Assembly (NCBI RefSeq): GCF_014337925.2
Contig: NZ_CP143423.1
Location: forward strand, 1,518,501-1,582,500
Direction: 5' to 3'
Length of the DNA stretch: 64,000 bases
From: Roseobacter fucihabitans
GTDB lineage: Bacteria; Pseudomonadota; Alphaproteobacteria; Rhodobacterales; Rhodobacteraceae
Shown here: positions 32,493 through 54,740 of the stretch, piece after piece
How the letters are laid out: every line of letters starts with the position of its first letter
Position numbering within the stretch: position 1 is the first letter of the stretch
The notes under the pieces: model-generated
Databases searched by the model: none
Told to the model about the DNA's origin: nothing
The model's input: the letters and a program-made list of their open reading frames with translations, nothing else
Translations under genes and position numbers: made by a program

Positions 32493-32534
32493 TTATATGC
32501 CACATTTTGCCGATTATATGCCACATTTTGCCGA
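32493..32534. repeat. Perfect tandem 21-bp repeat (two copies) with a third related half-site
   Basis: Two exact 21-bp units abut at 32493-32513 and 32514-32534, each containing ATATGCCACAT (32495-32505 and 32516-32526). A near copy, ATATGGCACAT, lies at 32612-32622, close to the ltnD start and just after a TATAGT -10-like hexamer (32600-32605). A 21-bp period is two helical turns, placing bound proteins on the same DNA face. Probably regulator sites for the C4 sugar-acid genes and/or the divergent gene. Confidence 0.8.
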
Positions 32535-32675
32535 TGTGCGATGTGGTTGAAAAACCGCGGTTCCAGGGAGGCGGCCAGAACCGATGGCGAAACCCGTTTT
32601 ATAGTGCAACGATATGGCACATAGTGAACAGATGTTTTTGCCCTGGTGCAGAGATCATAGATGGAGATTGAACAC

Positions 32676-33575: not shown

Positions 33576-33606
33576 CAGGGTACGCAATGAACGGAACGGG
33601 GTATTC

Positions 33607-35522: not shown

Positions 35523-36286
35523 TCCGCTTTTCGGCCAACCTTGGGTTTTTATGGGCGGATCGCGCGCTGCCTGACGCTATCCGCGCCGCTCATGCGGCGG
35601 GGTTTGATGCGGTGGAATGTCACTGGCCCTATGCCTTCGCGGCTGCGGATGTGGTCGCGGCGCTTGAGGACACCGGATTGACGATGCTGGGGTTGAACAC
35701 GCGGCGGGGCGATGTGGCGGGGGGCGAGAACGGGCTGTCGGCGCTGCCCGGGCGCGCCGCAGAGGCGCGGGCGGCCATTGATGAAGCACTCGCCTATGCC
35801 GACCAAACGCGGACCGGTGCCGTGCATGTCATGGCGGGTTTCGCGCAGGGTGCTCAGGCCGCCGCTTGTTTCGAGGCCAACCTGGAGTATGCCTGCACGC
35901 AGGCGGCTCCGTTGGGCATCACGATCCTGATCGAACCGCTCAACCATTATGATGCGCCGGGGTATTTCCTGAGCACGACGCGGCAGGCAGAAGACATCAT
36001 TGCGCGCGTTGTGCGTCCCAACCTCAAGCTGATGTTTGATTGCTATCATGTGCAACTGATGGAGGGGGATCTGTCGCACCGTCTGACCCGATTGCAGCCT
36101 CTGATCGGTCATATTCAATTTGCCAGCGTGCCTGACCGGGGCACACCGGATCACGGCGAGATCAACTATCAGCATATCTTCGAGGTGATCGAAAACATGG
36201 GCTATGACCGCCCGCTCGGGGCGGAATATAAATCAAACCTGCCAAGCGATCAGACCTTGCAATGGATGCAAGCCTACAGAGGTTGA
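35519..36286 (+). CDS. otnI: 2-oxo-tetronate isomerase OtnI (hydroxypyruvate-isomerase family)
   Basis: A 255-residue TIM-barrel isomerase: 'MIRFSANLGFLWADRALPDAIRAA' begins it, with metal/proton residues in 'ILIEPLNHYDAPGYFL', 'LMFDCYHVQLMEGDL', 'HIQFASVPDRGTPDHGEINY' and 'LGAEYKS'. OtnI interconverts 2-oxo- and 3-oxo-tetronate so that LtnD products reach OtnK. ATG 35519 overlaps the otnC stop, so the GTG three codons upstream is unlikely. Confidence 0.88.
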   Translation: MIRFSANLGFLWADRALPDAIRAAHAAGFDAVECHWPYAFAAADVVAALEDTGLTMLGLNTRRGDVAGGENGLSALPGRAAEARAAIDEALAYADQTRTGAVHVMAGFAQGAQAAACFEANLEYACTQAAPLGITILIEPLNHYDAPGYFLSTTRQAEDIIARVVRPNLKLMFDCYHVQLMEGDLSHRLTRLQPLIGHIQFASVPDRGTPDHGEINYQHIFEVIENMGYDRPLGAEYKSNLPSDQTLQWMQAYRG

Positions 36287-36769: not shown

Positions 36770-36964
36770 ATGTATTCCTTGCTCAAGGCGCTTTCGTTCA
36801 AAGACGTTCTGGAGCGCGAGTTCATTCCGTTTCTGGCGGCTCTGATTGTTGCGCAGCTCTACTTTAAATGGGGCAGCTTCGCGTTAGAGCTTGTGGGCTT
36901 TATTTTTACCTGGCTGGTGCTTGGCTTCGTTTTGCAGAAAATTCTGAGCGCAATCCGTAAGTAA
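36770..36964 (+). CDS. Small membrane protein of unknown function
   Basis: A 64-residue product with a charged start ('KALSFKDVLEREF') and two predicted membrane helices: 'IPFLAALIVAQLYFKWG' and 'FALELVGFIFTWLVLGFVLQKIL', ending in basic residues. It was accepted as real because of this coherent hydrophobic pattern, a possible upstream promoter and its position 101 bases before the giant-protein genes in the same direction. It could anchor or regulate that system, or be unrelated. No family is recognised. Confidence 0.55.
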   Translation: MYSLLKALSFKDVLEREFIPFLAALIVAQLYFKWGSFALELVGFIFTWLVLGFVLQKILSAIRK

Positions 36965-37065: not shown

Positions 37066-37944
37066 ATGGTGCGCCGACCCACATCACGACGCGGGCTTGA
37101 TCTTGGCTCTGTTTTATCCGGCACGCGCCTGCGCGATTTGGGCGGCCTGTCGGGAGTGTCCGCGCGCGACCGTGAGCGGCTTGAACGGATCATCAAAGAC
37201 GCTGGCGATTTGAGCGGCATCCGCGCCGAAGACCTTGTGATCAGCCGGGACAAACCACCAGTCTTTGACGATTTGGGCGATTTCATCGGCAATATCGTCA
37301 AACCCAGAGAGGTGACTGACCTGCTGGAGGAGGTGGTGCGCCAACCGGTTCTGTCGGGAAAAGACCCGCTGCACGGTGTGACCACATCGCTGATGGCGAG
37401 GCTACGCAAGAAACGGCCCGAAGCCTTGCCGCAGGTGCCTGTCGCGACCGGCAAAAAGGGCGCGGAAGTACCGGTGAGCACAAAGGGTCTGACGCAATTG
37501 CTGCGACTGGCCGCCGTGCGGATCTGCGCGGGTGAGCCAAGCGTGATCTGGGATGACGGCATCAACCAATTGATCGTGCATGGCTCAAAGATCAGCGCAA
37601 CAGTCACGGATGGCATGGTGCGCATTGACATCAAGGTCGAAGCCGATGGCCTGTCCACCACAATGCAAATCCCCTTCGCGCTTGGCAGCGAAGAGCGCCT
37701 TTCGGGGCTTGTGATGGCGACGACTGACCGACCGGCGGGCAATGCGCTGGTGGCGCAGGTCTGGGGGGATGCGTTGATCGCGCTGGCGCATGGCGCACTT
37801 GTGGCGGTGAGCGAGAGCCTTGCTGGGGCCTCCGGGCGGGATGTGATCAACAAGCGTCTGGTGCCGCGTGCTTTGCGCGCCAAACGCGGTAGCCTCGTGG
37901 TGGAAAGCCAGGCGCGGTTCCTCTTCAAGGAGGACGGGCGATGA
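37066..37944 (+). CDS. Unknown protein, first coupled gene of the giant-protein locus
   Basis: A 292-residue soluble protein from ATG 37066, chosen because GGGAGAG lies about seven bases upstream; the open frame continues to 36988. No signal peptide or membrane helix is visible. A charged N-terminal half rich in aspartate and arginine ('SARDRERLERIIKDAGDLSG') is followed by a beta-rich half ('QLIVHGSKISATVTDGMVRIDIKVEADG'). No family is recognised. The stop overlaps the start of the 3280-residue gene (ATGA), so the two are probably made together and may interact. Confidence 0.8.
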   Translation: MVRRPTSRRGLDLGSVLSGTRLRDLGGLSGVSARDRERLERIIKDAGDLSGIRAEDLVISRDKPPVFDDLGDFIGNIVKPREVTDLLEEVVRQPVLSGKDPLHGVTTSLMARLRKKRPEALPQVPVATGKKGAEVPVSTKGLTQLLRLAAVRICAGEPSVIWDDGINQLIVHGSKISATVTDGMVRIDIKVEADGLSTTMQIPFALGSEERLSGLVMATTDRPAGNALVAQVWGDALIALAHGALVAVSESLAGASGRDVINKRLVPRALRAKRGSLVVESQARFLFKEDGR

Positions 37945-40900
37945 ATGCTTTTTCAGCAGATGAGTTCGGCGATACGGCGGATCTTTTGCGCGCGCTTGGG
38001 CTGGTCGATGCGGCCGGGGAATTCAACAGCGATTGGCTGGGCAATCCCGAAGCCTATCTGAAAACCATGCTGGCCGATGATGCGCAGCGTCAGGCGCTGT
38101 TTGATTTCGTGGCCACGCTGCGCGGGGGAGACACCGAACGCGATCCCGAGGGGCGTTTGTGGATCGAGCTTTTTGCTGAAGATCTGGGCGGTGGGTCGCG
38201 TATCAGCTTCTTTGTCATCGCCGATGATACGCCCGCCAGCGAAGTGCATTTGTTTCTGGGTGTGCGCTTTGGGACCGGCGCGCCCCTGGTCGAAAGCCAA
38301 TCCTCGCTGATGTTTCCGCTGTTTCGGGCGGGCAAGACCGGGCCTGCGCCGGACACGCCCGAACTGATCGGCAACAGGGGCGGCGTGATCGCCCTGACCA
38401 GCGATGTGACTGTTTCGGACACACCCGCCCCCCCCGGTGAGGCCGGGTTGCAGGGCGTCGGGTTGCGGTTGCTGATCCCGACACTGGCCACGGATGGAGC
38501 TCCTCAAATCGGTCTGACCCTGCGCGGGATGCAATTGCCCGGTCAATCCAGCGGACGCGATGTGATCCTGTCGCTGAGCGATCCTGACAGCCTGCGCGAG
38601 TCCGGGCTCGAATTGATTATCGCGCTGTTGCAGGCGCGGGTCGGGACTGCGGCGGGCGCGCAGATCGCGGGTTTTGCCAAGCTGATCGGTCTGGGGGATG
38701 ATCCTGCGATCCCGCCGCTGCCGGTAGCGGAATTTTTCGAGCGCGGTGTGGAGGCGCTTGGCGACTGGCTGGCGCAGGTGCTGGGCGATGCGCCGCGCCG
38801 CTCCGCTTGGTTGCAGGCGCTGGCGGATGTCTTTGGCGGTGCCGCTTTGGTGCAGGGCGATGAGGTTCTCATCACCCTTGGCGCGAGCGTTCTGCGCCTT
38901 GGCCTGCGCGCCGAAGCCGGGGCCTCGGGCAAGCCGGTGCTGACAGTCTCCTGCGCCTTCGGGCTGCGGGATGGACCAGCGGAGGTCGCCTTGCGCGCCG
39001 ATCTGGTGCGCCTTGATCTCGGGCTTGGCACGGCGCTGGCCGTTCCGATGCTGCGCGGGGAAGCGCGGTTTGATCTGTCGGGCGTGGTGATGCCGGATGT
39101 CTCTGTCGAGACGCTGGTGATCGGGTTCGGCCTGAATGCGGACCGCCGACCCATTCTGGTTGTGGAACTGCTCAACGCGGTTCTGTTCAACACCGCCCAT
39201 CCGCGTCTTGATCTGACCAATCCCGATGCGCTGGCCGCGACGGCCTCGGCCGCAATCACGGACGCGCTGGCCGAAGTGCTGGGCAACCTCGGACCGGGTG
39301 GGGATTTGATCGCGACCGTTCTGGGCTGGCAGGCCCCGCCCGGCGCAACGCCCACTTATCCGCGTATCGATCTGCTGGCGTTCCTGGGCGATCCTCTGGG
39401 CCGTTTGCGTACCCATTGGGAGGCGGTTCTGAACGGTCCGGCGGCGGATGTCACCGCAGGCCTTGCCGCTCTGCGCCATTTGCTGACGGGGGATGGCAGC
39501 CCCACTGCGATCACCGGGACGGGCACGGCGGGCGAGCCATGGGTGCTGCCGCTTGTGGCGGGGCTGCATGTGGCGCTGTGGCGTGACGCGCGCGCGCGGC
39601 TCGTCATCGGGCTTGCGTTCCTGCGACAGGTCGATTCACTGGGTCAGCGTTGCACCGTTCTGGAAACACGGCTGCGCGTCGGCATCGTCGCGCTCGATTT
39701 GCAAAGCGGGGCTGCCGGTTTCCTGCCCGAAATTACCCTGCGGGGCTTGGGGCGCGCGCGCGGTGGAGGGCGGTTGCGCACCGATCAGGGGGATTTTCGC
39801 CTGGAGGTGGATCACCTTGGCCTGCGCGCGCTCTGGACCCCGGAGGATGGGCTCGGGGTTACGATCGAGGCTCCAAAACCAACGGTCTATATCAATGGGG
39901 TGCCGGTGCCGCTGGACATACCGGATTTTTCCGGCGGTCTGGCGCAGAGCATCGCCTCCTTTACCAATGAGCAATGGGACGCGATTGAGCGCCTTGTGTC
40001 GCTGTTGGTCCACAAGATCGGGCAGGATTGGCTGAACGATCTGATCGAGGCAGTAGGATGGCGGCGCAAGACCCCGATCCTGGGCGCGCCGCAGCGTCAC
40101 CGATTGCGACTGGCCGATCTGATCGCCGATCCCGCCGAGGCCCTGCGCGGCTGGCTGGCGCGTATTCTGGCGGATGCGGACGCGCGGATCGAACAGCAAA
40201 TCCAACCTCTGGCGCGATTCCTGTCGGGCCGCCCGGCCGCACGGATCAGCGTGACAGGTCGCGGTACGCTGCGCGACCCCTGGCGTATTGCGCTTTCGGA
40301 TGCGCCACAGATGCCCGCCATCGCCGTCTGGCGTCAGCCCGACGCGCCGCTGCCTGTGCCAAATGCCTTTGCGTCCCTGCCGCTGCGCCGCTGGCGACCG
40401 GGTCGGGCGGGCTTGCCACCGGGCAAGCTGGCCCGCGCGATCCTGACCGAATTCCCGGACATAACCGGGCCTTTTGGCGCAGGTCTGGCACAGGAGGCGG
40501 TGAGCACCGGGCTCGCGGGGCTTGCGCGGCTCTGGCAGGGCAGCGATGGGCGTCTGCGTCCTCCGGCGGTTCCGATACCGGGCGCGACGGTGCATCTGAT
40601 CCAGAACCAGACCGCCCGCGCCATTTTTACAAACCTTGACCCTGCGCAGATCCTCGGGGTGCAGGTCGCGACCCGGATCACCGTTCGCGTGCAGCGCGCG
40701 AGCGCCGCAGTGGATGCCACCCTTAATCCCGCGCGGGTGTTGGATTTGCGCGAGGCAGGGCGCGATCCGCTGGCCTTCACGCCCTTGCCTGCGCAAAGCG
40801 GGGAATGGCATGTGTTGCTGGCCCCGCGCGATGCGGCCCGCTTGCCGAGCGGGGATGCCGATGGTGTTGCCGGACAGATCGCGCGGCTGCGCCATGCCCT

Positions 40901-43900
40901 GTCGCTGATTGCGGCGCAGCCGGATGTCTGCGTGATTGCGGATGCCGCCGCGTCGCATGCCTGCTGGCTGACACTTGATGCGATGGGCAGTGGTATTGAC
41001 CGGTTGATCACCGTCGGGATGCCGGTTGTCGCGCAACAGGTGCCCGTGACGCTCCCTGCAGTGCAGGGAGAGATGCTGCGCCGACTTGCCGAGTTTTTGC
41101 CCGATCTGGACCCTGCGGTACCGGATGACGATGATCTGGCGCGGGCGCGCGATCTTATCGGGACCTATCTGTCCGTGGATGCCACGTTGCTGGAGGATCT
41201 CGCTCTGCCGTTTGGTTGGTCGATGGAGACCCGCGCCGATTTGTCCCGGCATCTGGTCCATGGTGCCTTTGACACGGACGCAATCGCGCGTGCGATGAGT
41301 GCTGCGGTGGCCGCAGGGCTCAGCCTGAACGCGCAAACCCGCAACGCGCAACGTAAATTGCAGGACATGACTTCTGCGTCGCTGGGTGTCTGGCTGCCGC
41401 TGGCCAGTGCGCCGGGTACTACGGGGATACGTCTGCGCGGACATGGCCTGGCTGAAATCATCGGTATTGATCTGGAGCCTTCCGCCGCCCTCCCAGAAAC
41501 CAAGCCGCGCCCTGCGCGGGTGATTTCCGCGGCATTGGAGATTGCTCATTCGGGCGGCTGGTTGATTGGTGGGCCGGAGCGCGCCCCAAGGCCGCTTGAT
41601 CTGGAATTGCGCTCGCTTGAGATCGAACTGAGCCTGACGCTCGGGACTGCGGGTGCGCCAAAACTCAACCGCGCGCGCCTCGTGATGCACGGTGTACGCA
41701 TCCGCGGGCGCAGTTTTCCGCGTCTGGTCCTGTCGCCTGATCTCGCAGTGGCGGATCTTGGCATAGACGGGCAGGCCGCGCCCAGCATGCCCGAAATACA
41801 GGATATGTTGGGCCAGGTCTTTGCGCAAATGAGCGCGGCGGCGGACCCGAGCCTTGCCAAACTCGCCGATGCTGTGCGGGCCGCGGGCATCCTTGGCGCG
41901 GGCGATGCGCTGGATCCGCTTTCGCTGTCGAACTGGCTGGATGATCCGGCCGCGCGTCTGCGCGATGTGCTGGACAATCCGGACCTGCGCAACCGACTGT
42001 TGGACTGGGTGGCACAGGTCACAGGTGATGTGACGGGCCTCAGCTTTGATCCGGTGCGCCAGCAGGTCACGGTCGCGCTGTCGGGGGACACGGGCATGCC
42101 TGTCTTCACCGAATGGGCCGTGTCGAGCGTTATTGGTCCCGCAGGAGTGAGCAGTGCAGCGCTGCGGCTGGGGGCGCAGAGCGACACGCATCTGGCCGTG
42201 CCCTTGATGCCTTTTGCGGCCTCACTGACCCTTGGGAGGTCCCATGCCGACGCCCTTGGCGGCTTGCCGGCCGTTGTGCCGCTCTGGCCCGCGCCTGACG
42301 TGACGCGCCTGCTGGCAACCTCCGCACCGGCGCTGGCAAGCCACGCGATGGCCCGCCTGCTTGAAGGGTTGCGCGCCTCTGATCCCGGTGTGCGCCCCGT
42401 CGTTGATGCGGCCCTGAACGCGTTGGGGATGCTGGATAGCGCATCCGGCACGCCGCGCGTGGCGATCCCGCCCTTGATGTTCATCAACCCCGGTGCCTGG
42501 CTGCGTCTGGGGACGGTTCTGGGTACGCTGGACGGCGCGACCATCCGCCCGGAACGTGCCATTGCGCTGATGGAGGCGCTTAAGCCGCTGGTGGGTCTCT
42601 CGGGCGCGCCGGGCGTGTGGGACATTGCGCCGGGGCTGTCGCTGCGCGCGCGCAGTGCGGCTGGGCTCATCGTGGAATTCACGCTGGATCCGGCGCTGTT
42701 CATGCCGGGGGCGGATGTTGATTTCGGCGGCGCAATCGGGCTGCACATCGGGTCAGATGGGCGGGTTCTGCCTGCGCTTGCAGTATTTGTCGGGCTTAGC
42801 GGCGGCGTAGCAGGCCAGCGTGCCGTACATCTCGCCGTGGCCGGTGGGAGCACACGTCTCTTCCTGCGCAACGGCGCGGGCAGTGATCTGGAAATCTATC
42901 CCAACCCGGCGGGGCTTGGCCAATTGGCCACGCAGGGCGTGACGGCGGCACTTCCTGCGGCTTTGGACGCAATTGTTGATACCAATTCACCTGCGGGCGA
43001 TGTGCTGGGCGATATCGGGGATGCCTTACTGCTGCGCGTGGGCGGGAATTTCGATGGTGCCGCGATGATCTCCTGGGTCACGGATCCTGCGGGCACGCTT
43101 GAGGCCAGATGGATAGCGCTTTTGACGTCCGGGCTTGTCCGGCTTGGGGCGGCCTTGCCGAGCGATATCACTCTGACGGTCACCGCCGCCGGGGTGCGGC
43201 TTGAAATACCCGACGCTGGAACATCCGGTTCCACGGTGCATGTTGCGCTGAATGCCAGCCCGGTATCGCTCGAAGTCGGCGCGAACATCACAACAATTCC
43301 CTTTGTGCGCACTGTCTCAACCACGCTCAAGTTTGACGCCTCGGGCCTCGCGCTTTCGCAAGCCGGTGTGGGCCCCGCAGATATCCCGCTCAGCGATGGT
43401 ATCAGCCTGCGCCCGATTTTTGCGCTTGATGTCGGCAGTGAGGCCATGGACCCCTTCGTGTCCATCGGGCTGGCGGTGGCGGCCGACAACGCACAGGCGC
43501 TTGCATTGCGCTATGCGTTCAACAGCGAGAGCTTCGATCTGGGCTTTGGCAGCAATTCGCCCGAAGACATCGCCAGCGGGATCATGCATTTCGCCATTGA
43601 TCTGATCGGCTCATTCCTGCTGGAGCTTGAGGCCATCAACGACGTGCTGGATGAAACCATCGGTCCGGCAAATAGCACAAGCATCCGCGATCTGCTGACC
43701 GGGGTGCTGCTCAAACCGGGCGGTGGGCTTGATCCCGATCTGTTCCGTGTGATCATGAAACCGGGTGAAAGCCTTGAGGATCTGCTGGAGGATAAGCTTG
43801 CGCGGGTCATCACGCTGATCGCCAATGTGGCGGATGCCAACCCGACAGTGCGAGTGGGCGGCGAACTTGACATTGGCATCGCGCGTACCGGCGAAGTGAT

Positions 43901-46900
43901 TGGCTTCTCGCTGGGGTTGGCGGGCCGCTTGCCGCTGGTGGAGGGCGATATCGCGCTCTGGCTGGAAAACGATAGCCGCTGGATCATCGGCGGGCCAACG
44001 GCGGGGCTGAAAATCGGGCTGCTGCGCGAGAGCAGTGGCGCTTTGGCTTTTGAGCCGACCTTGTCCGTAGATGGTGTGGGCCTGCGCATCGGGCGTTCAA
44101 ACGGGCCACTCCTGGAAAGCCCGATTGCCATCGGGTCTATCGCGCTGCATGGGTTTGCGCGCTTGGGGGACGGCCAAAAACTGGGCGGTGCGCAGGTGCA
44201 GCTCTCTGAAATCGCCGTCGCCGTGGGCAGCGCTTCGGGCGACGAGGAGGGCGGTAACGCGGTCGCACAAGGCATGCTGGCGGAAACCAATGACGGGGAC
44301 GCGGCCCTCGCGCCCGCCTTCAGCCCCGCGCTGTCGGTGCAGACCCGCCCGAGTGCCGATGGCGGCGGCGTCGCGTTCCGCTTTGTCGCGGGCGAGGGGG
44401 AGGGGCCCTGGTGGCTGCCGATCCGCAGCCAGTTTGGCCCGATCTATATCGACCAGATCGGCCTTGGCACTCAGATGTCGGAGGATACGCTGCAAGCGAT
44501 TTCGCTGCTCTTTGATGGTAATGTCTCCATCGCCGGGTTGCAGGCGGCGGTGGATGATCTGGAACTGCGCTACCGGTTGGACGCGGGTGGCATCTTTGAT
44601 CCGGCCTCCTGGTCGGTCGATCTGGCCGGGTTGGCGGTTTCGGCGGATATGTCCGGTGTCGTGCTGGCGGGGGGCTTGCGTAAATTCGAGATCGAAGGCA
44701 CCGACAGCATTGATTATATCGGCATGCTGGCCGCGCGCTTTGGCACCTATGGGTTGTCGCTTTACGGCGGCTATTCCGCGATCAAGGGCGATGATCCCTA
44801 TTCAGCGTTCTTTGTCTATGGCGCGGTGCTGGGGCCTTTTGGCGGGGTGCCTGCGTTTTTCCTCACCGGCATCGGGGGCGGCTTTGGCATCAACCGCGAT
44901 CTGATCCCCCCGACCAGCCCCGGTGATTTTGACGATTTCATCATGATCGCGGCCCTTGATCCGGCCTTCAGCCCGGATGGCGACCTCAACGCAGACCTCG
45001 CCGTGATCCGTGGCAATTTCCCCGAAAAGAAAGGCAAGTTCTGGTTCGCCGCTGGCATCAGCTTCACCTCCTTCGCGCTGGTGGATGGGATCGCCGTGGT
45101 GGCCGTGGAATTCGGGCAGGGCTTTGAGCTGTCGATCTTCGGACTCGCGCGCATGGCCCTGCCGCGCCCGCAAGTGGCGCTTGTTTCCATCGAACTCGGC
45201 CTCATCGCGCGGTTTTCGACCGAGGAAGGCGTGATCTGGATACAGGCGCAATTGACTGATAACTCGTGGCTTTTGCACACAAGCGCGCGGCTGACGGGCG
45301 GGTTTGCCTATGTCAGCTGGTTCAAGGGCGACAAGGCGGGTCAATTTGTCATCACGCTGGGCGGGTATCACCCCAATTTCCACCGCGACGGATACCCCGT
45401 GGTGCCCCGGCTTGGGTTTAACTGGTCCGTTTCCAGCAATATCGTCATCAAGGCGGAGGTGTATTTCGCCCTGACGTCCGAGGCGATCATGGCGGGCGGG
45501 CTGTTTGAGGCCAGCGCCAAATTCGGCCCTGCCTTTGCGCATCTCAGCTTTGGCGGCAATGCCATCGTCTATTTCGACCCGTTCAATTATGAGGCGGATG
45601 CCCATGCGCGCATTTCGGCGGGCATCCGGATTTCGACGTGGTTCGGGACCATCCGGCTTTCGTTCAGCCTTGGGGCCTATATCGAAGTGCGCGGCCCCGA
45701 ATTTCACGGCACGGCGCGCATTGAGATCGGACCCATCGACATCCATGTGCGGTTTGGGGATAGCTCGAAACCCCGTGGGGCGTTGGTGTCCTGGAGCGCG
45801 TTCTGCGAGAAATATCTGGAACTGGCCACCAATGACAGCGCGCGCGCCATCAGCGCAATCGCCGGTCGCGGTGCTTTGCCCCCGGCGTCAAGCGACGGCG
45901 AGGAGGCGGGCAGTGCCGATGGCAGTGCTGCGCATCCCTATGATGTCACAAGCGAATTTGAGCTGTCCTTTACCTCTACGATCCCGCTGACGGCGATCCT
46001 GTGTGACGGGCGTGTCGTGGCCACGGGGGCCAAGCCAAATCTGGGCGTGACGCCTTCGGGCAAGGCGGTCAAGGTCAGCCGGCTGATCCTGAGCCTGAGG
46101 CGCACGGATGGAGGGGCTGCAAGCCTGAACCTGCCTGACAGGATCTTCCTGAGCGCGCGCAGGACCGGCAAATTCCCCATCGGGGTCTGGGGTCCGCCGC
46201 AGGATGATGACACGCGCAAAATGCCCAAAGGTGATGTGATCACCGCGACCGAGGGGCTGGATCTCCAGTTCAAATCCGTGCGCTCCAGACGCATCCCGAA
46301 TGATGCATCCGGCGGTGTGGGCTTTGATCAGGTCGAGCCCGGACAGCGCAAACCCTTGCCGTTGCGCGCGGCGGGTGCTTTGCGCGCCAGCCTCCTGCGG
46401 GTCGCAAAAGAACAGCGCGCCCTGCTCAGTGCCATGAACCCGGATAAAATGCCGCAATTTGCCTCCGACTGGCACGGTGCGGCGCGCCAGGCGACGGCGC
46501 AACGCTCTTTCGCGCGCGCCCGCGCCGTTCCCATGCGGATCGGGCTCCTGTCTGAACGCATTATCGGGACGGCGGCGGCGGGTAAAAAACGCGTGAAACT
46601 GGCCCCCGGACAATCCACCAAGACCGTAACATTTGGCAAGGCGCGGTTGCGCGGGCTGATGGTGCAGCCGGTCCGCATGGCGCGCAAGACGGCCGTGGAT
46701 GCGGTCACAAGCGTGACGATGACCGCATCGATTGCCAAGAACCTGAAGCGCATGTCGCCCCCCGCGTTGGTGCTTAATCCACAAATCGCCGGGATCACGC
46801 CGGTCCTGTTACGCGCCCAGATCGGTGCGCCCAAATCCGCCAAAACGCTGGTGGCCGCCACTGTTGTGCCCGAGACAGTTTCAGCTCTTTCGTCTTTCTC

Positions 46901-47783
46901 CTCAGGGCGCAGGGGGGCCGGTTCCGCAGACCGCAAAACCTTGGCCGGTATCGAAAACATGGTGCAACCCCGCTCGGCCAACCGGGGCGAGACCCGCGCG
47001 CTGATGCCCGGTGAAATTGCCGTTTTCGACCTGCCGGGTGCGGGCGGCACCTTGCGGTTTGAAAGCGCTGGCGCGGTTGCTCTCAAAGGGGTAGCGCGGC
47101 TCATCGCGATTGGCGGTGGCGGGCATGTCATCGTGAACAACGCCGATGCCGGGCGTGCCGTCCTGCCTGCCGAAACGCGCGCCTTTGCGGTCATCGCCGG
47201 AGAAGAGCCCGCGCCGGGTGATCTTGCCGGATGGCTTGAAACCACGCAAATCGCCTATCTGGGCTATGGCACCGCGCGCTGTCCGGGCGGGTTCGTGCGC
47301 GCCGAGGGCGCAAGCCGTGCGCGGGCGGGTAAAAAGGCAGGGTGTGGTTGGATGCAGGCGCGCGATCTGACGGATCAATCGGCGCTGGTTGAGACCCAGT
47401 TTGATCGCGGTGCGCGGAGTGTTGCGCTGATGATAGACGGTGCCTTGCAGAAAGAGGACCTTGAAACGCTGGCGCTGCATTTTGACGGGTTGGACATGGA
47501 GGAGGGCGCGCCGCAACTGGTGCCTTTCGATGGCAAGACGCTGATCGTCTATTCCTCCGAAAAACCCGCCAGCGTCAAGCCGTTCTCGCTGAGCATCGGC
47601 GGGCGTACCGACGATCGCCTTGACGGTGTGATCGCCGCACAGATCAGCGCGGATCGCCTGATTGCGCGCCTGCTTAACGCCGCCCTGCGCCTCGATCTTG
47701 AAACCGGAAGCGGGCAGAGCAGCAAAACAACAAGCATCACGTGGAAAGCGCCCGCCAATTTGCGCGTGACGCAGCCGGAATAG
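37941..47783 (+). CDS. Giant 3280-residue protein with recurrent modules and a DUF6603-like region
   Basis: An uninterrupted 9.8-kb gene. No signal peptide or clear membrane helix. The first half alternates beta-rich blocks with short helical modules of the form W/L-x-x-D/N-P-x-x-x-L: 'WLGNPEAYLKTML' (about 32-44), 'FLGDPLGRLRTHWEAVL' (about 477), 'LIADPAEALRGWLARIL' (about 724), 'WLDDPAARLRDVL' (about 1330) and 'WVTDPAGTLEARWIALL' (about 1711). Around residues 2390-2620 ('FGLARMALPRPQVALVSIELGL', 'YFALTSEAIMAGGLFEASAKFG', 'AHLSFGGNAIVYFDPFNYEADA') it resembles DUF6603 from memory. The last 600 residues are rich in Ala, Arg and Lys. Function unknown; a scaffold or lipid/ligand-binding surface is conceivable. 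Coupled to both neighbours. Confidence 0.9.
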   Translation: MNAFSADEFGDTADLLRALGLVDAAGEFNSDWLGNPEAYLKTMLADDAQRQALFDFVATLRGGDTERDPEGRLWIELFAEDLGGGSRISFFVIADDTPASEVHLFLGVRFGTGAPLVESQSSLMFPLFRAGKTGPAPDTPELIGNRGGVIALTSDVTVSDTPAPPGEAGLQGVGLRLLIPTLATDGAPQIGLTLRGMQLPGQSSGRDVILSLSDPDSLRESGLELIIALLQARVGTAAGAQIAGFAKLIGLGDDPAIPPLPVAEFFERGVEALGDWLAQVLGDAPRRSAWLQALADVFGGAALVQGDEVLITLGASVLRLGLRAEAGASGKPVLTVSCAFGLRDGPAEVALRADLVRLDLGLGTALAVPMLRGEARFDLSGVVMPDVSVETLVIGFGLNADRRPILVVELLNAVLFNTAHPRLDLTNPDALAATASAAITDALAEVLGNLGPGGDLIATVLGWQAPPGATPTYPRIDLLAFLGDPLGRLRTHWEAVLNGPAADVTAGLAALRHLLTGDGSPTAITGTGTAGEPWVLPLVAGLHVALWRDARARLVIGLAFLRQVDSLGQRCTVLETRLRVGIVALDLQSGAAGFLPEITLRGLGRARGGGRLRTDQGDFRLEVDHLGLRALWTPEDGLGVTIEAPKPTVYINGVPVPLDIPDFSGGLAQSIASFTNEQWDAIERLVSLLVHKIGQDWLNDLIEAVGWRRKTPILGAPQRHRLRLADLIADPAEALRGWLARILADADARIEQQIQPLARFLSGRPAARISVTGRGTLRDPWRIALSDAPQMPAIAVWRQPDAPLPVPNAFASLPLRRWRPGRAGLPPGKLARAILTEFPDITGPFGAGLAQEAVSTGLAGLARLWQGSDGRLRPPAVPIPGATVHLIQNQTARAIFTNLDPAQILGVQVATRITVRVQRASAAVDATLNPARVLDLREAGRDPLAFTPLPAQSGEWHVLLAPRDAARLPSGDADGVAGQIARLRHALSLIAAQPDVCVIADAAASHACWLTLDAMGSGIDRLITVGMPVVAQQVPVTLPAVQGEMLRRLAEFLPDLDPAVPDDDDLARARDLIGTYLSVDATLLEDLALPFGWSMETRADLSRHLVHGAFDTDAIARAMSAAVAAGLSLNAQTRNAQRKLQDMTSASLGVWLPLASAPGTTGIRLRGHGLAEIIGIDLEPSAALPETKPRPARVISAALEIAHSGGWLIGGPERAPRPLDLELRSLEIELSLTLGTAGAPKLNRARLVMHGVRIRGRSFPRLVLSPDLAVADLGIDGQAAPSMPEIQDMLGQVFAQMSAAADPSLAKLADAVRAAGILGAGDALDPLSLSNWLDDPAARLRDVLDNPDLRNRLLDWVAQVTGDVTGLSFDPVRQQVTVALSGDTGMPVFTEWAVSSVIGPAGVSSAALRLGAQSDTHLAVPLMPFAASLTLGRSHADALGGLPAVVPLWPAPDVTRLLATSAPALASHAMARLLEGLRASDPGVRPVVDAALNALGMLDSASGTPRVAIPPLMFINPGAWLRLGTVLGTLDGATIRPERAIALMEALKPLVGLSGAPGVWDIAPGLSLRARSAAGLIVEFTLDPALFMPGADVDFGGAIGLHIGSDGRVLPALAVFVGLSGGVAGQRAVHLAVAGGSTRLFLRNGAGSDLEIYPNPAGLGQLATQGVTAALPAALDAIVDTNSPAGDVLGDIGDALLLRVGGNFDGAAMISWVTDPAGTLEARWIALLTSGLVRLGAALPSDITLTVTAAGVRLEIPDAGTSGSTVHVALNASPVSLEVGANITTIPFVRTVSTTLKFDASGLALSQAGVGPADIPLSDGISLRPIFALDVGSEAMDPFVSIGLAVAADNAQALALRYAFNSESFDLGFGSNSPEDIASGIMHFAIDLIGSFLLELEAINDVLDETIGPANSTSIRDLLTGVLLKPGGGLDPDLFRVIMKPGESLEDLLEDKLARVITLIANVADANPTVRVGGELDIGIARTGEVIGFSLGLAGRLPLVEGDIALWLENDSRWIIGGPTAGLKIGLLRESSGALAFEPTLSVDGVGLRIGRSNGPLLESPIAIGSIALHGFARLGDGQKLGGAQVQLSEIAVAVGSASGDEEGGNAVAQGMLAETNDGDAALAPAFSPALSVQTRPSADGGGVAFRFVAGEGEGPWWLPIRSQFGPIYIDQIGLGTQMSEDTLQAISLLFDGNVSIAGLQAAVDDLELRYRLDAGGIFDPASWSVDLAGLAVSADMSGVVLAGGLRKFEIEGTDSIDYIGMLAARFGTYGLSLYGGYSAIKGDDPYSAFFVYGAVLGPFGGVPAFFLTGIGGGFGINRDLIPPTSPGDFDDFIMIAALDPAFSPDGDLNADLAVIRGNFPEKKGKFWFAAGISFTSFALVDGIAVVAVEFGQGFELSIFGLARMALPRPQVALVSIELGLIARFSTEEGVIWIQAQLTDNSWLLHTSARLTGGFAYVSWFKGDKAGQFVITLGGYHPNFHRDGYPVVPRLGFNWSVSSNIVIKAEVYFALTSEAIMAGGLFEASAKFGPAFAHLSFGGNAIVYFDPFNYEADAHARISAGIRISTWFGTIRLSFSLGAYIEVRGPEFHGTARIEIGPIDIHVRFGDSSKPRGALVSWSAFCEKYLELATNDSARAISAIAGRGALPPASSDGEEAGSADGSAAHPYDVTSEFELSFTSTIPLTAILCDGRVVATGAKPNLGVTPSGKAVKVSRLILSLRRTDGGAASLNLPDRIFLSARRTGKFPIGVWGPPQDDDTRKMPKGDVITATEGLDLQFKSVRSRRIPNDASGGVGFDQVEPGQRKPLPLRAAGALRASLLRVAKEQRALLSAMNPDKMPQFASDWHGAARQATAQRSFARARAVPMRIGLLSERIIGTAAAGKKRVKLAPGQSTKTVTFGKARLRGLMVQPVRMARKTAVDAVTSVTMTASIAKNLKRMSPPALVLNPQIAGITPVLLRAQIGAPKSAKTLVAATVVPETVSALSSFSSGRRGAGSADRKTLAGIENMVQPRSANRGETRALMPGEIAVFDLPGAGGTLRFESAGAVALKGVARLIAIGGGGHVIVNNADAGRAVLPAETRAFAVIAGEEPAPGDLAGWLETTQIAYLGYGTARCPGGFVRAEGASRARAGKKAGCGWMQARDLTDQSALVETQFDRGARSVALMIDGALQKEDLETLALHFDGLDMEEGAPQLVPFDGKTLIVYSSEKPASVKPFSLSIGGRTDDRLDGVIAAQISADRLIARLLNAALRLDLETGSGQSSKTTSITWKAPANLRVTQPE

Positions 47784-47792
47784 GACAGGGAT

Positions 47793-49910
47793 ATGGTCGC
47801 CAGAGGCAAATTCTTTTTATACGACTACATCGTGCCGCCTTTGCCAGCGGGCCGTTACAAATTGAATGCCACGCTTGATCTGAGCGTTACCGATGGTACC
47901 GATACGGCGGTAGCACCGCATGATTTGCATTTCAACGTCACCGCCCCGCGCCTGAAATTGCCACCCGATCAGGCGCTGATGACCTTTCCCCCGGCGCATT
48001 CTGAAGGGGCCTATGAGGCCCGCTTGCCGCAGATCGTCTTGAAAAAACGCACGCTGCCATGGGATCGCCAAGCGGCCCCCGTGGGCAGCGTGTTTCATGA
48101 GCAAAGGGTGGAGGAGAGTACGCCCTGGATGGCGCTGGTGGTGATCGCCGAAGGGGAGGGCGAGATCCAGCACGACCAACCCGCCGCCGATTGCATCACC
48201 GCGCCCAGGACCTTGCCCGGCAATTTCGACACCCCGCGTGCGAGTTGTCTGTCGGTGCCGCAATCCACTGTGGATAAGGTGTTTCCGACGGTTCAGGACC
48301 TGTCGCTGCTCAGCCATGTGCGCGAAGTCAATGTGGATGATACCGAAAACGCCATGGGCGATGATGACGGGTTTCTGGCCGTGGTCATTGCCAACCGGAT
48401 GCCGCAATATGATCACGACACCTGCAAGCCCAAGGCCTATACCGCCTGTCTGATCAACCTTGAAGGCCAATTGGATGTCTTGCCGCCGCCTGCACCCCCG
48501 CGGAGCTTCTACGAGTTGTCGGACCTGTTCCTGAGCGCTGAAATCGCGCGGTTCGCGACATCTGTGGGGTCCGGCACGGCGGTGCCGCAAACCCTCACCA
48601 TGGAGCCGCGCCTGCTCGATCTGGGCGATGCCGGTGCCATGGTGGATGCCGTTCGGCGCGGCGAGGTGGTGTTTCATGACGGCACGGTCGTGGATAGGGC
48701 TGGCGGCACAGCGGAGGGGCTGAACGTACTGGGGCGTATGGATTCGGCCGCCTTCCTGGAGGGCGATTTCGCATCGCTTTCCGGCGTGAGCGAGGATGTT
48801 GGCGCGATGGCCGTGCGCCGCGTCGAGGGGACGTTTTCGGGGTTCAACTTCCCGCTGGAACGGCTTGTCACGGAAAAGATTTACCGCTTTCCGGTCCTGA
48901 CATCCTGGCGTTTCACCTGTTCAGGCGCGGGCAGCTTTCAGCAATTGATGAGTTCGCTTGATGTTGGCCTGTTGGGGACCGTGACGCCGGGGGGCTACAA
49001 GCGCGCCTTGCCCGATTGTGTGACAAAGGTGAAGGGCAGCGACCCCGGCGCGCCCCCCGTGACAAAATTGCCGCTGGAAATGGCGGAGACCGGTCACGTC
49101 GGCCTGCCGCATCTGACGCGTACCGGGGAAAACGCCAATGCATGGTATCGCGGGGCTTTGTCGCCACATCAATTGCTGCGCAACCCGCTGGCGCAGGAAG
49201 CGCAGTTCCCGGTGCTGGCCCATATCAGCGATCATTTGCGGATGATGACGCCGGATGGGCGCGAGGATGTGTCGCTCGCGGTGGCCTTTGAAACCGGGCG
49301 TCTTCTGGCGATGTCCCAACCCTCCTTCGTGGCCGCGCTGCAACGCTGGCGTGCCGATAAGTTCGGAGCGCGTCGTCGGCAGTTCGCACAGGAGGCCGCG
49401 TTTCGCGACGGCCCTGATCTGCTCGATACGTTGATCAGCGATTTCGATAATGACGCCATTCTTGAGGCGATCAAGGCCGGGCTGATCCCGCAACTCATTG
49501 AGGGCGGGCTGATGCGTGCGCTGGACCTGCGCCGTGAACGCACGATTTCCACACCTGTCGAATTGGTTAACCCCGGCGTTGAAGCGCAGGGGCTGGTGGG
49601 CGATTTTAATGCCTTCCTGGCAGATGGGCTTGGCATGGACCGCGCCATGGTGGATCAGATCGCGGCCCAGCCGGAAAACATGGATGCCTTCGCGCGCCTG
49701 CAGGCCGCAGAACCCGGTGGGATCAGCACCCGCGAGATTAACCTGAACGGGGACATAGACGCCCAGCTTGGCGATGTTCTGGACAGTGGCATCGCGGATC
49801 TGGCCAGCGCCACGATCGGCACGCGCGACATCCGCGAAGATACCATCAAGGACCTGAATGAATTCTCCTCCTTTGACCTCTTTGTCAAAGACCGGTTTGA
49901 GAGGAACTGA
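47793..49910 (+). CDS. Unknown 705-residue protein of the giant-protein locus
   Basis: Starts nine bases after the giant gene. The N-terminus ('FFLYDYIVPPLPAGRYKLNATLDLSV') reads like a beta-sandwich, not a signal peptide. Distinctive segments are 'LSLLSHVREVNVDDTENAMGDDDGFLAVVIANRMP', 'NAWYRGALSPHQLLRNP', and 'EDVSLAVAFETGRLLAMSQPSFVAALQRWR' followed by a helical C-terminal third. Six cysteines occur, clustered in the first two-thirds. From memory such segments recur in hypothetical proteins of other large-genome bacteria, but no function is known to me. One base separates its stop from the next start. Confidence 0.85.
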   Translation: MVARGKFFLYDYIVPPLPAGRYKLNATLDLSVTDGTDTAVAPHDLHFNVTAPRLKLPPDQALMTFPPAHSEGAYEARLPQIVLKKRTLPWDRQAAPVGSVFHEQRVEESTPWMALVVIAEGEGEIQHDQPAADCITAPRTLPGNFDTPRASCLSVPQSTVDKVFPTVQDLSLLSHVREVNVDDTENAMGDDDGFLAVVIANRMPQYDHDTCKPKAYTACLINLEGQLDVLPPPAPPRSFYELSDLFLSAEIARFATSVGSGTAVPQTLTMEPRLLDLGDAGAMVDAVRRGEVVFHDGTVVDRAGGTAEGLNVLGRMDSAAFLEGDFASLSGVSEDVGAMAVRRVEGTFSGFNFPLERLVTEKIYRFPVLTSWRFTCSGAGSFQQLMSSLDVGLLGTVTPGGYKRALPDCVTKVKGSDPGAPPVTKLPLEMAETGHVGLPHLTRTGENANAWYRGALSPHQLLRNPLAQEAQFPVLAHISDHLRMMTPDGREDVSLAVAFETGRLLAMSQPSFVAALQRWRADKFGARRRQFAQEAAFRDGPDLLDTLISDFDNDAILEAIKAGLIPQLIEGGLMRALDLRRERTISTPVELVNPGVEAQGLVGDFNAFLADGLGMDRAMVDQIAAQPENMDAFARLQAAEPGGISTREINLNGDIDAQLGDVLDSGIADLASATIGTRDIREDTIKDLNEFSSFDLFVKDRFERN

Positions 49911-49911
49911 T

Positions 49912-50928
49912 ATGGCGCTCGCCCAATACATGACCCTGCAACTGCTGGCCAATGCGGTGGTGGATACTGTCGCAACAGATGGCGGACGGATCACACCGCC
50001 CGAAATCCTGACATTTCTGGGCAAACTGCGGATGCTGGAAGGGGTGCCGTTCAACAATCTGGTGCCGGATGAAGAGCTGTTGCCCAATGAATCGATCCGG
50101 TTCTTTCATCTGGATCGGGCCTGGAGCGATGCTTTGGTTCAGGGCGCCTTGAGTGTGGCAACGACCAATTCTGTTGAACGCGCGCAGCTCGAGCAGCTCT
50201 ATCCGACCATCGAGAGCGAAGTGGATGAGGTGGAACGCGAATACCGCGCGCCGGGGGGCGAGCCGGTGTTGCGCGGGCCTGCGGGTCCGGTCTCGGGGTT
50301 TTTGTTGCGCTCGGCCGCCGTGGCGGGATGGCCGGGTCTGCATGTGCGCGCCTATAAGAACGAGCCCGAGGCGGGGGATACGGAGATTGCGGATGAGGGC
50401 GACCCATCCCGCATCAAGCTGTTGCGTCTGGAACGTTTGTCGCCTGCGGTTCTGTTGGCACTGTTTGATGGCATTCCCAAGGTGCTGCACATTGAGGAGC
50501 CGCGTCAGGGTATCCAGTTTGGCGTAAACCTTGAGACCAACGCGCGCACCAAGCGTACCAGCGCTACGGTGCCCGCGCGCAATGTGGAGACCGGCAATTA
50601 CGTCAATGGCGCAGGGGTCGAGCAGGAATTACCCACGCGGGCCGCGCAAATCCCGGTGCGGTTTCGTCGCGGTGCGGCGGGTGTGCTGGACCTGTCCAAC
50701 ACCGCGCGGGGTTTTGCGGATGCGAGCGCCACGGGGATGAGCACGGCGCCCGGTGATCCGGTGAACGGTGCGGAGTTTGCCATGCAGATGATCCGTTTCC
50801 CCTACCGGCAGATTTTTGCACAGGACGTGGCCACGACCGCCACGCAGAATGACGCCTTCAAGCCGACGCTCGCCAGTGTTTCTGCGCGCTATACATCTGT
50901 TCTGAAAAAGAAAATACGGGAGGATTGA
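49912..50928 (+). CDS. Unknown 338-residue protein of the giant-protein locus
   Basis: Begins one base after the preceding stop at ATG 49912; the longer frame would overlap the upstream gene. The N-terminal part is helical ('YMTLQLLANAVVDTVATDGGRITPPEILTFLGKLRMLEGVPFNNLVPDEELLP'), the middle mixed ('GPAGPVSGFLLRSAAVAGWPGLHVRAYKNEPEAGD'), the end basic. No signal peptide, membrane helix or recognised family. The segment 'LLRLERLSPAVLLALFDGIPKVLHIEEPRQGIQFGV' looks like a domain core. Its conservation beside the 705- and 1269-residue partners would be the main clue to a complex. Confidence 0.83.
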   Translation: MALAQYMTLQLLANAVVDTVATDGGRITPPEILTFLGKLRMLEGVPFNNLVPDEELLPNESIRFFHLDRAWSDALVQGALSVATTNSVERAQLEQLYPTIESEVDEVEREYRAPGGEPVLRGPAGPVSGFLLRSAAVAGWPGLHVRAYKNEPEAGDTEIADEGDPSRIKLLRLERLSPAVLLALFDGIPKVLHIEEPRQGIQFGVNLETNARTKRTSATVPARNVETGNYVNGAGVEQELPTRAAQIPVRFRRGAAGVLDLSNTARGFADASATGMSTAPGDPVNGAEFAMQMIRFPYRQIFAQDVATTATQNDAFKPTLASVSARYTSVLKKKIRED

Positions 50929-50930
50929 GC

Positions 50931-53900
50931 ATGGCAGACCGGATCAAACCAGGCCTGATGAAATCCATCCTCTCCAGTGGAAACTGGGCGTTGGCCAGCG
51001 GCGTTCAGGAACAGGTGCTGGATGCGCAACAACTGTTTGCGAAACCCACACCAAAACCGGATCCCGCCTTGTTGGTGCCTGTCGATGTGCAGGCGCTTTA
51101 CGTGCCGACATCGCATAGCGAACGCTATGTGCGCCTGCCTTTGGAGCTGGGCGAAGGGGCGAAAAAAGGGGAACACATCGCGCCGTTTTCGATCCCGCGC
51201 GCGCGTTCAAAGGGGGTGCATCTGCACTGGGCCTTGCCGGATGGGTTGTTGCGCGGCGAGATGGTGGAGGATGCCGACACACCCGTAAAAATGCGCGCCC
51301 TGCCCAACAGGTGGCTTGTGGTGCGCATGAGCGGGCGGCAGGGGCGCAGCAAGCTTGATCTGCGCACGTGGCTGATCGAATCCGATAAAGGCCGCGTGTT
51401 CGATCTGCCCAAATACCCCGCGGATGCCGCGTCGATCTCGCCCCATGCGCTCGATCCTGAGCAATTGACCGGGATTATGGGCGGCTCGCCCAACTGGACG
51501 GCCTCCTATGACGCCAGCCTTAACCGTTTTGCCTTCCATGATCCGCTGGATGATATCGACGCCGGGCAAGTGATGACAAAACAGGCCAGCTATGTCGTGA
51601 TTGGATGGTGGTCCGAGCGCAACCTCGATCCGCTGGCCGGGCTGACCTTGCCCTACGGCGTGCCGCGCCGGATCGCGGGGTTCAACTGGACCGCTTCCAC
51701 GGCCCCCTTTATCACCGCGTGGCAATCGCCCAAAGCCGTATTGGCCTCGACGCAAACCGAGGCGGTGGATATTGAGCGCGTCGATATGCGCAGCGCCTTG
51801 AAGCTGAGCACCTCGCAGATTGGCCTCGCGGCAGGTTTCCGCGAATATGAATTGGACGAGGTCGTGTTGCAGCGTATCCGTGCGCGCTACCAGACCGTGC
51901 TGCACGGCGCGGTCTACGGTGTGCCGATCATGGGCGGTGTGGGCAAGGACGCAGCACCACGTGCGCGCGACATCAACCTGTCCATGGCACCGACATTGGA
52001 GCGGTTGATTGCCGCACAGGCCGCCAGCGGTATGGGGATAAGATCGGCCGCGAAAAAGGAGTATTTCGAGGCACTGATCACGGCGGTGGCCAATACATCG
52101 TTGATGAACGTCGCCACCAGTGACGGTGTGGTGGCCTTGGATGAGGCCGAACACGGCGATGGGTTTGAGGCGTTTCAGGGTCCCGAAACCTATGAGGATG
52201 TCATCATCACACGCCAGCAATCCGCCCTGAAGGCGGGCAGGCCGCTGCGCACGAAAGAGGCCAAGGCGACAACCCCTGAGGCGCTGCGCGCGCAGGTGAT
52301 CTGGAACGGTCGGGTGCGCGGCAAGACCATGTCCACGCGCGACGCGCTGCGCCGCAAGAGCGAAGACATCAAATACCGGATCAAACCCGGCGAGGTTGTG
52401 GAGGACGGACCCGAAACGCGCAAGGTGCGCCGCCCCGGTCCGCGCTATCATCGTCCCACTTCGCCGGTCATCGGTTTGCGCAACTATGGGCGCGCACAAC
52501 GGTTTCTGGGGGATGGCCGGTTTAACGATGAGAACAAGCTGGTCTGTCGCTGGTCCGATGAAATGACCGTGCAATATGGCGAGGGCTATGAGGCCAAAAC
52601 CTATGTGCCGCCGCTGGTGAACAGCGCCGTTCCGGCAATTGCCAACCGCATCATCCAGAACAGTTTCATGGGCGATCTCTATATGATGCCGTGGATTTTC
52701 GATGCGATCAAAGCGGTGGTGCGCGGCGACGCGGTAGGGCAGACGCAGAACCGGTTGCGTGGGGAAATGGCGCTGCGTTATTCGCCGGATGGGGTCTATG
52801 ATGGCATTGTTCCTCTGGCGCGCAAGAACCCCGAAACACCCCGTTCCGCGCAGATCGCGGTGAGCGATGCGATGCGCCGGTTTTCGCTGGCCGAGGGGCG
52901 CGAGCCGAGCCCGGTGGCCGTGACCAGCTGGGTGCAACCCTGGTCGCCGGTCTGGCTGGAATGGGAGGTCGAACTAGCACCGGGGCGCGGGTTTGAGGGC
53001 TGGTCGCTGGGGCGTATCGAATTTGACGGCGCGCCGGTGCCGCAGGGCGAAACGCTGACCCTGCTCGGGCGTTCGGCCATCACCTCAGGCGTGGCGCGGA
53101 CCTACCAGGCAGTGATCGACACCTATCTGATCGCCGAAAACCAACGCGATGCGGCGGATGCGGGGGAGATTGGAGAGCTTCACGAGGGGACGCTGTCCCG
53201 GCTCGCGGCATATCTGAAAAATGCCGATCTGGGCTCGGTGACGCTGGACCGGATTAACGATCTGTGGCTCGCCATCGAGACCGGTCCGGATGGCCAGGTG
53301 ATGCCTGCGCCCGCCGCCGTGTCCGATGCGCTGCGCGCGGCGGGTTTGCCCAACCTGATCGCGGACGGCACCCTGCGCCTGACGCGCGCCCGCATCGTGG
53401 ATAGTTTCGGGCGGTTTCGTGATGTGAATACCTCAGGGATCACACTGCCCACCGCGCTGGCCACCAAAACGGAAGGTGGCGATACCGCATTGGCGATGCC
53501 GCCGCGGCTCTCCTTGCCCGCGCGGCTGATGTGGCGATTTGTGGATCCCGGTGATACCTCTGCGCGGCCCGCTGAGGGGCGGCTGGATCAAGCCACGCCC
53601 GCCAATATGGTGAACCCGATCTCGGGGTATGTGCTGCCCGATTTCATTGATGAATCGCTGGAGTTCTTCGACCAGACCGGCCAGCCGCTGGGTGAGGTTT
53701 TGCATGATCCGATCACCGGCGGGTTGATCTGGGAGGGCGGTGTGGGGCGTGAGGGGCCTGCTTCCGGCTCGCCGCGCGCGGATTTGCCCAAATCGGCGCG
53801 GCTGTGCGGTGAAATCGCTCAAGGCATGATCGAAGCGGATGTGTTTCAGCGCAACACCCCAGAGCATCGCGACAAGGAAAGCCCGCTGAGTGCGTTTTTG

Positions 53901-54740
53901 CGCGCGGTGGATACCACCAGCTGGAGCGTGGACAGCAGCCTGATGTCGGCGGGCGCGACCATTGCCGGTCTGGTCGGGCGGCCCGTGGCGGTGGTGATGA
54001 CGCAGCTTTGGCTCGATATCCCCGAGGACCTTGCCAAAACCGGTGCTTTTGGGGACAGCGGGGATGATATCCGTGACCATCTGGTGCGCGAGGCGGTGTT
54101 TGACGCGGTCAAATCGCGGGCCTTCAAGGTGCGTCTGGGCGAAATCGCCAAGGGGCATGACGGGCTTTACGGATTCTTCATCGGGGAGGATTACGCGCAT
54201 TTCCACCTGATCGAAAAGGAAGTGGCACAGGCCGCTCTGATCAGTCGCAGCGGTTCCGGTTTCCGCGCGCTTCTGGGCGGGGTGGGCGATCAGATGGGGT
54301 CCAATGCGCTGCCAGCGCCCAGCCCGCTGGACACACCCTATATCGGTGCAGGCGAGCCGCTGAGCGTGCATGTCGGGCAGAAACTGCGCCTGACGTTGCT
54401 GATGCATCCCACGGCGCGGGTGCATGCCACCACGGGCTTTTTGCCGCGCAAGTCACTGGAATTACTGAATGACTGGGTGTCGCCGGGGCTGGGGCGTGTG
54501 GCACCTTCGGTACGTATCGGGCCGGTGATCATTGATCCTGACCGGGTGCGTTTGCCCAAAATCGCCGCTTTTGGCGCGGATCAAACCTGGACGCGGCGCA
54601 ATACGCCGATCACCTGGCGCGACGATCCCATTCTGGCCGCGACCCAGGCCGCGCTGCTGCCAGGCGGGCGCGCGAGCGTGCAGGAGGGCTACATCCGCAT
54701 CACGCCGGAGGGCGGTGCCAAGATCGGGGAGGAGTCCTGA
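50931..54740 (+). CDS. Unknown 1269-residue protein of the giant-protein locus
   Basis: ATG 50931 is chosen: GGAGG at 50919-50923 is correctly spaced; TTG 50925 overlapping the upstream stop is the alternative. Early segments 'GVHLHWALPDGLLRGEM' and 'LPNRWLVVRMSGRQG', a middle with 'SWVQPWSPVWLEWEVELAPG', and a late 'NPISGYVLPDFIDESLEFFDQTGQPLGEV' plus 'VGRPVAVVMTQLWLDIPEDL' suggest several mixed alpha/beta domains. No signal peptide, membrane helix, catalytic motif or repeat toxin signature was seen. The stop overlaps the propeller gene by one base (TGATG), implying reinitiation. I recall similar segments only in uncharacterised proteins. Confidence 0.85.
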   Translation: MADRIKPGLMKSILSSGNWALASGVQEQVLDAQQLFAKPTPKPDPALLVPVDVQALYVPTSHSERYVRLPLELGEGAKKGEHIAPFSIPRARSKGVHLHWALPDGLLRGEMVEDADTPVKMRALPNRWLVVRMSGRQGRSKLDLRTWLIESDKGRVFDLPKYPADAASISPHALDPEQLTGIMGGSPNWTASYDASLNRFAFHDPLDDIDAGQVMTKQASYVVIGWWSERNLDPLAGLTLPYGVPRRIAGFNWTASTAPFITAWQSPKAVLASTQTEAVDIERVDMRSALKLSTSQIGLAAGFREYELDEVVLQRIRARYQTVLHGAVYGVPIMGGVGKDAAPRARDINLSMAPTLERLIAAQAASGMGIRSAAKKEYFEALITAVANTSLMNVATSDGVVALDEAEHGDGFEAFQGPETYEDVIITRQQSALKAGRPLRTKEAKATTPEALRAQVIWNGRVRGKTMSTRDALRRKSEDIKYRIKPGEVVEDGPETRKVRRPGPRYHRPTSPVIGLRNYGRAQRFLGDGRFNDENKLVCRWSDEMTVQYGEGYEAKTYVPPLVNSAVPAIANRIIQNSFMGDLYMMPWIFDAIKAVVRGDAVGQTQNRLRGEMALRYSPDGVYDGIVPLARKNPETPRSAQIAVSDAMRRFSLAEGREPSPVAVTSWVQPWSPVWLEWEVELAPGRGFEGWSLGRIEFDGAPVPQGETLTLLGRSAITSGVARTYQAVIDTYLIAENQRDAADAGEIGELHEGTLSRLAAYLKNADLGSVTLDRINDLWLAIETGPDGQVMPAPAAVSDALRAAGLPNLIADGTLRLTRARIVDSFGRFRDVNTSGITLPTALATKTEGGDTALAMPPRLSLPARLMWRFVDPGDTSARPAEGRLDQATPANMVNPISGYVLPDFIDESLEFFDQTGQPLGEVLHDPITGGLIWEGGVGREGPASGSPRADLPKSARLCGEIAQGMIEADVFQRNTPEHRDKESPLSAFLRAVDTTSWSVDSSLMSAGATIAGLVGRPVAVVMTQLWLDIPEDLAKTGAFGDSGDDIRDHLVREAVFDAVKSRAFKVRLGEIAKGHDGLYGFFIGEDYAHFHLIEKEVAQAALISRSGSGFRALLGGVGDQMGSNALPAPSPLDTPYIGAGEPLSVHVGQKLRLTLLMHPTARVHATTGFLPRKSLELLNDWVSPGLGRVAPSVRIGPVIIDPDRVRLPKIAAFGADQTWTRRNTPITWRDDPILAATQAALLPGGRASVQEGYIRITPEGGAKIGEES

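Follow-up and report, generated by a model that had tools for sequence, protein, structure and literature searches.

The window, the whole 64,000-nucleotide stretch of Roseobacter fucihabitans DNA analysed here, contains an open reading frame of 3280 amino acids (gene B; 37941..47783, + strand), and it raises the question of how so long a protein is built and what it may do together with its neighbours. A preliminary description had reported at least five related modules in it, near residues 32, 477, 724, 1330 and 1711, punctuating beta-rich blocks. All five were present, with the true D or N lying a few residues downstream, and five [D/N]-P-x3-L-x3-hydrophobic cores were located with D/N at residues 35, 484, 730, 1335 and 1715. 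In shuffled B, 0.2 was expected for the five-copy pattern, and none of 500 shuffles reached five copies. A sixth copy at 1516 (FINPGAWL) was also conserved, and two degenerate copies were seen at approximately 268 and 1941. An HMM of the six copies detected 6/6 at matching positions in four orthologs (approximately 60-76% identity), and an ortholog of 41% identity kept four of the six.

The self-similarity of B is deep, since plain BLASTP of the protein against itself was blind to it and returned no match. Self-comparison was made profile against profile (hhalign), from ortholog alignments of B. The strongest self-matches (E 7e-8 to 2e-9) were 58-98 columns in length and included residues 457-554 against 701-804 (E 2e-9) and 8-65 against 1304-1365 (E 7e-8). 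Weaker matches extended over whole units (209-375 vs 422-602; 170-379 vs 1223-1431) or linked 288-414 with 1722-1835, and spanned helices and strands alike. The column-shuffled null of the B profiles gave a maximum of 27 bits compared to 58 bits for the real profiles. The ten best non-redundant self-matches all fell in unit register, set by anchors at 35, 268, 484, 730, 1335, 1516, 1715 and 1941, compared to approximately 11% for a random pair, a descriptive figure as the anchors were partly picked from earlier self-matches of B. The duplicated blocks were approximately 180-250 residues each and comprised helices and approximately 10 strands. The modules do not stand alone between independent beta blocks; each supplies the helices of a duplicated piece that also includes the beta half of the unit. 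Convergence, by which the D/N-P helix caps would have arisen as short motifs in a protein without other repeats, is favoured by the empty BLASTP self-comparison and by the commonness of D/N-P helix N-caps, but is very improbable and largely refuted by the null and by profile alignments of 80-194 columns that include strands and keep a single register.

These alignments support a protein of approximately eight tandem units followed by a C-terminal DUF6603 domain, all on the + strand. Unit 1 (37941..38582, residues 1-214) carries an NP motif at 35 and aligned to unit 5 with an E-value of 7e-8; in the AF2 model it has helices at 6-61 and strands after. Unit 2 (38583..39221, residues 215-427) contains the degenerate motif near 268, its segment 209-375 aligning to 422-602, with helices modelled at 215-298 and strands at 302-424. 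Unit 3 (39222..39938, residues 428-666) has a DP motif at 484 and was recognized by a profile self-match and the AF2 pattern. Unit 4 (39939..41780, residues 667-1280; DP motif at 730) was placed by the match of 457-554 to 701-804 and is interrupted by an insert (40338..41366, residues approximately 800-1142) with an inferred boundary and an alpha/beta look. This insert of approximately 340 residues, deduced from sequence, would account for the gap of 605 residues between units 4 and 5. By eye alone the insert also resembles an alpha/beta-hydrolase core lacking the catalytic serine elbow (ADAAAS); a PDB profile search gave no match, and the hydrolase reading was rejected. Unit 5 (41781..42296, residues approximately 1281-1452) has a DP motif at 1335 and unit 6 (42297..42905, residues approximately 1453-1655) the NP motif at 1516. 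Unit 7 (42906..43559, residues 1656-1873; DP motif at 1715) is marked by the match of 427-508 to 1655-1739 and by the AF2 pattern, and unit 8 (43560..44426, residues approximately 1874-2162) by the degenerate motif near 1941, the match of 1317-1370 to 1923-1973 and its helix/strand pattern. The DUF6603 domain (44427..45830, residues 2163-2630) matched PF20248 with an E-value of 4e-117 (392 bits, cut-off 27), and a PDB profile search with it returned nothing notable. The C-terminal tail (45831..47780, residues 2631-3280) is less conserved.

Two AlphaFold models of B (mean pLDDT 46.9 and 33.1) were used for secondary-structure order only; the input alignment held four sequences, the contig scan having been made by N-terminal patterns only and having given three loci. 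The same order was found independently in both models, in units 2-4 of the first and units 7-8 of the second: a long helix, a short helix, a linker, 2-3 helices with D/N-P at a helix start, approximately 10 strands and the next long helix. A unit is thus predicted, from models of low confidence (mean pLDDT 33-47), to hold 4-5 helices and approximately 10 strands. The predicted strands are strongly two-faced, with a mean face difference of 1.01 compared to 0.58 when shuffled (0 of 2000).

Foldseek with the B model returned no significant match. Its top-ranked hit was the OrfX1-OrfX3 structure (E 0.13, probability 0.06, TM 0.07-0.10), and orfX-p47 clusters, like the present operon, are multi-gene clusters encoding several large proteins that are rich in beta structure, have no obvious signals and whose function is obscure. 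The units of B could accordingly be read as TULIP-like lipid-binding domains, in an operon analogous to orfX-p47 clusters whose products are partners in a secreted complex. The structural resemblance is, however, weak and non-significant, none of the TULIP families matched in sequence, the helix content differs and the operon has no neurotoxin genes. When the strands of unit 2 were compared by Foldseek and VIA, resemblances to barrels and meanders were middling (a designed barrel scored best, Z 8.2), and VIA-align favoured unrelated meanders and barrels. We regard the TULIP-like reading as quite improbable.

Somewhat better placed, though still improbable, is a bacterial bridge-like lipid carrier, in which the unit strands would form a continuous hydrophobic groove and a small two-TM protein encoded upstream (gene S, below) would be the membrane port. 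Bridge-like lipid transfer and AsmA-TamB proteins are, like B, very large, repeat-built and rich in amphipathic strands, and the tandem beta-block repeats, the two-faced strands and the linked membrane protein would all suit such a role. Two-faced strands are, however, expected equally of barrels and sandwiches, and the repeat of bridge-like lipid transfer (RBG) proteins consists of five antiparallel strands and a loop that form a U-shaped groove (PMC12066543), compared to approximately 10 strands alternating with 4-5 helices in B. No chorein, AsmA or TamB match was obtained against Pfam (for chorein at E<=1, a search by which remote homologs can be missed). The start of B, MNAFSADEFGDT, has no N-terminal hydrophobic segment and so no inner-membrane anchor of the AsmA/TamB type, and the operon has no gene for a second membrane. 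The long rod, groove or lipid-carrying bridge raised in the preliminary description thus appears unsupported; the lipid-bridge idea draws on two-faced strands that barrels and sandwiches share, in a protein predicted to have neither the anchor nor the five-strand repeat.

Shorter relatives pointed to the route by which B grew. Proteins with DUF6603 (PF20248) are usually approximately 860-1400 aa and, as for B, combine this domain with the downstream partners CD and E; B differs in its 3280 aa and approximately eight N-terminal units, where typical relatives have one to a few. A protein of 1288 aa from another genus (L015) carries a single clear module at its N-terminus (E 6e-5 against unit 1 of B) and a C-terminal block in common with B, the last unit being the same. 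A 1744-aa protein (L041) resembles L015 in its first module (89% probability) and in the C-terminal 900 columns, but these are separated by an additional stretch of approximately 600 residues, in which two segments weakly match units 3 and 8 of B. These relatives with fewer units support growth by internal duplication, and the duplication proposed in the preliminary description is upheld by them together with the in-register alignment of whole units. In the beta-only short relatives N-terminal self-repeats were not significant, so no family-wide repeat is claimed, and the short helix-block HMM by itself lacked the power to detect units in distant relatives. Viral contigs, scanned twice, yielded no relative. 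One DUF6603 relative (L018:8624-12745) ends at its C-terminus in two matches to the ribosomal L7/L12 C-terminal domain.

B belongs to an uncharacterised Pfam family, of which it is a member expanded by repeats, and is part of a wider gene cassette. With iterated profiles, the gene immediately after DUF6603 was a CD homolog in 22 of 25 loci, and the other three had no detectable CD gene; the CD-bearing loci belonged to Alphaproteobacteria, Bacillota, Actinomycetota and Halobacteria and included Paenibacillus, Streptomyces and the haloarchaeon Halalkalicoccus. An E homolog was found in 16 of the 25, in DUF6603 loci of Alphaproteobacteria, Paenibacillus and Streptomyces, and was not detected in the archaeal locus. 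C and D, two genes in this stretch, are one fused gene in most relatives, and conservation of the complete operon extends to other species and genera. Directly 5' of one divergent DUF6603 cassette lies a subtilase (Peptidase_S8) gene (L017:6034-8340). Our literature search found no paper mentioning DUF6603 and no description of the wider cassette.

The operon comprises seven genes, S and A-F, with A-F contiguous and co-oriented. Gene A (37066..37944, +) encodes 292 aa from the conserved start MVRRPTSR (318 aa from 36988, the start given by the ORF caller). B is followed by C (47793..49910, +; 705 aa), D (49858..50928, +; 356 aa; overlapping the end of C), E (50925..54740, +; 1271 aa) and F (54740..58084, +; 1114 aa). 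Inside C, ARAGORN called a tRNA-Ala(ggc) at 48779-48861 (+), probably a false positive given that this part of the reading frame is conserved. CD showed no evident catalytic signature, and the E product had no match in Pfam or the PDB (profile search included), its homolog in one relative containing a Jacalin lectin domain. F has weak similarity to BNR/propeller proteins (PDB 3b7f, E 0.004). Homologs of A and F occur only beside long B, and typical DUF6603 loci are without S, A and F. Hydropathy gave no signal peptide and no TM segment in any of A-F. PADLOC matched none of the seven proteins to anti-phage defence and PHROGs matched none of A-F, S giving a short, weak match to a family with function unknown only; overall the operon proteins had no enzymatic, transport or defence match.

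Gene S (36770..36964, +), upstream of A, is a 64-aa ORF with two predicted TM segments in a hairpin, and was absent from the preliminary description and from a 100-aa ORF list. All six long-form loci have this ORF ahead of A, at 48-83% identity and with ATG, GTG or TTG at one shared start position, and its pN/pS of 0.10-0.46 across these loci indicates purifying selection. The genomes with S were precisely those that encode long B (4 of 395 in the family sample, 3 of 19 in the genus); genomes whose DUF6603 proteins are short lacked it.

Presence of the cassette is patchy, at 16 of 395 family genomes. In one congener (G647) otnI and MscS lie 1.4 kb apart and the operon is missing between them, while in another (G644) it is present there; with the patchy presence, the empty and filled site make the DUF6603 operon an accessory block. 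In the window, the operon directly follows genes resembling a catabolic operon for sugar acids (four-carbon acids), OtnK/OtnC/OtnI-like (29520-36286, +). Further upstream, Rfam matched 5_ureB_sRNA at 24974-25261 (+; 118 bits), on the strand opposite a 569-aa ORF (23705-25414, -) that is probably the urease gene; conservation of the coding sequence, and not an sRNA, may explain this match.

An island-like distribution with an empty site would also suit a particle of inter-organism conflict or release, toxin- or tail-like, assembled in the cytoplasm and freed by lysis, with S acting as a holin-like protein. The lack of export signals in A-F and the lectin and propeller domains in an E homolog and F fit such a particle, and a homologous locus in Paenibacillus is carried by a plasmid, close to baseplate genes. 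Those baseplate genes are, however, approximately 9 kb away, genes for a toxin, sheath, tube, baseplate or lysin are missing from the operon itself, and no PHROG, PADLOC or informative Pfam match was obtained. This explanation is unlikely, although slightly less so than those above.

A structural complex is the most economical explanation, because gene order is conserved, C and D are fused in relatives and enzymatic, transport and defence matches are lacking. We tentatively favour B as the repeat-built scaffold of a large assembly of B, C, D and E, tied to the inner membrane in its long form and carrying A and F as lineage-specific add-ons, a reading we hold at a little short of even. The N-terminal two thirds of B consist of approximately eight tandem units of approximately 180-250 residues, each predicted to have 4-5 short helices, one of them capped by D/N-P, and then approximately 10 antiparallel amphipathic strands. 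DUF6603 and the last unit would form the shared docking core that pairs with CD and E, while the number of extra units would determine how large the B arm is. S would tie the long-form assembly to the inner membrane or let it pass through, and A and the propeller-like F would be additions of particular lineages. Carbohydrate-type domains in the partners (Jacalin in the E homolog, BNR in F) speak for the scaffold, and the three DUF6603 loci with no detectable CD count against it. The data show the repeats, their differing copy number, the conserved neighbours, the C-D fusion, the linkage of S and selection on it, and a patchy distribution that includes an empty site; the physical complex, the extended shape, the membrane contact and any surface-binding role are what we infer for the B assembly. 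The extended shape is assumed, as the structure models are of low confidence; the small two-TM protein S suggests membrane contact in the long form; and a role at the cell surface would need an unusual export route, since A-F have no signal peptide or TM segment.

For the family, these results move DUF6603 from an isolated domain of unknown function to a multi-protein system that can be tested: it now has fixed partners across phyla and an architecture of repeats whose copy number forms a series, and S, a small membrane gene, tracks only its longest form. It is possible, and we put it no higher than that, that an undescribed protein machine with DUF6603-CD-E at its core extends from bacteria to haloarchaea, E not having been detected in the archaeal locus. 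In it the DUF6603 subunit would serve as a molecular ruler lengthened by duplication of a helix-plus-sheet unit, and its longest form would have acquired a dedicated two-TM membrane partner.
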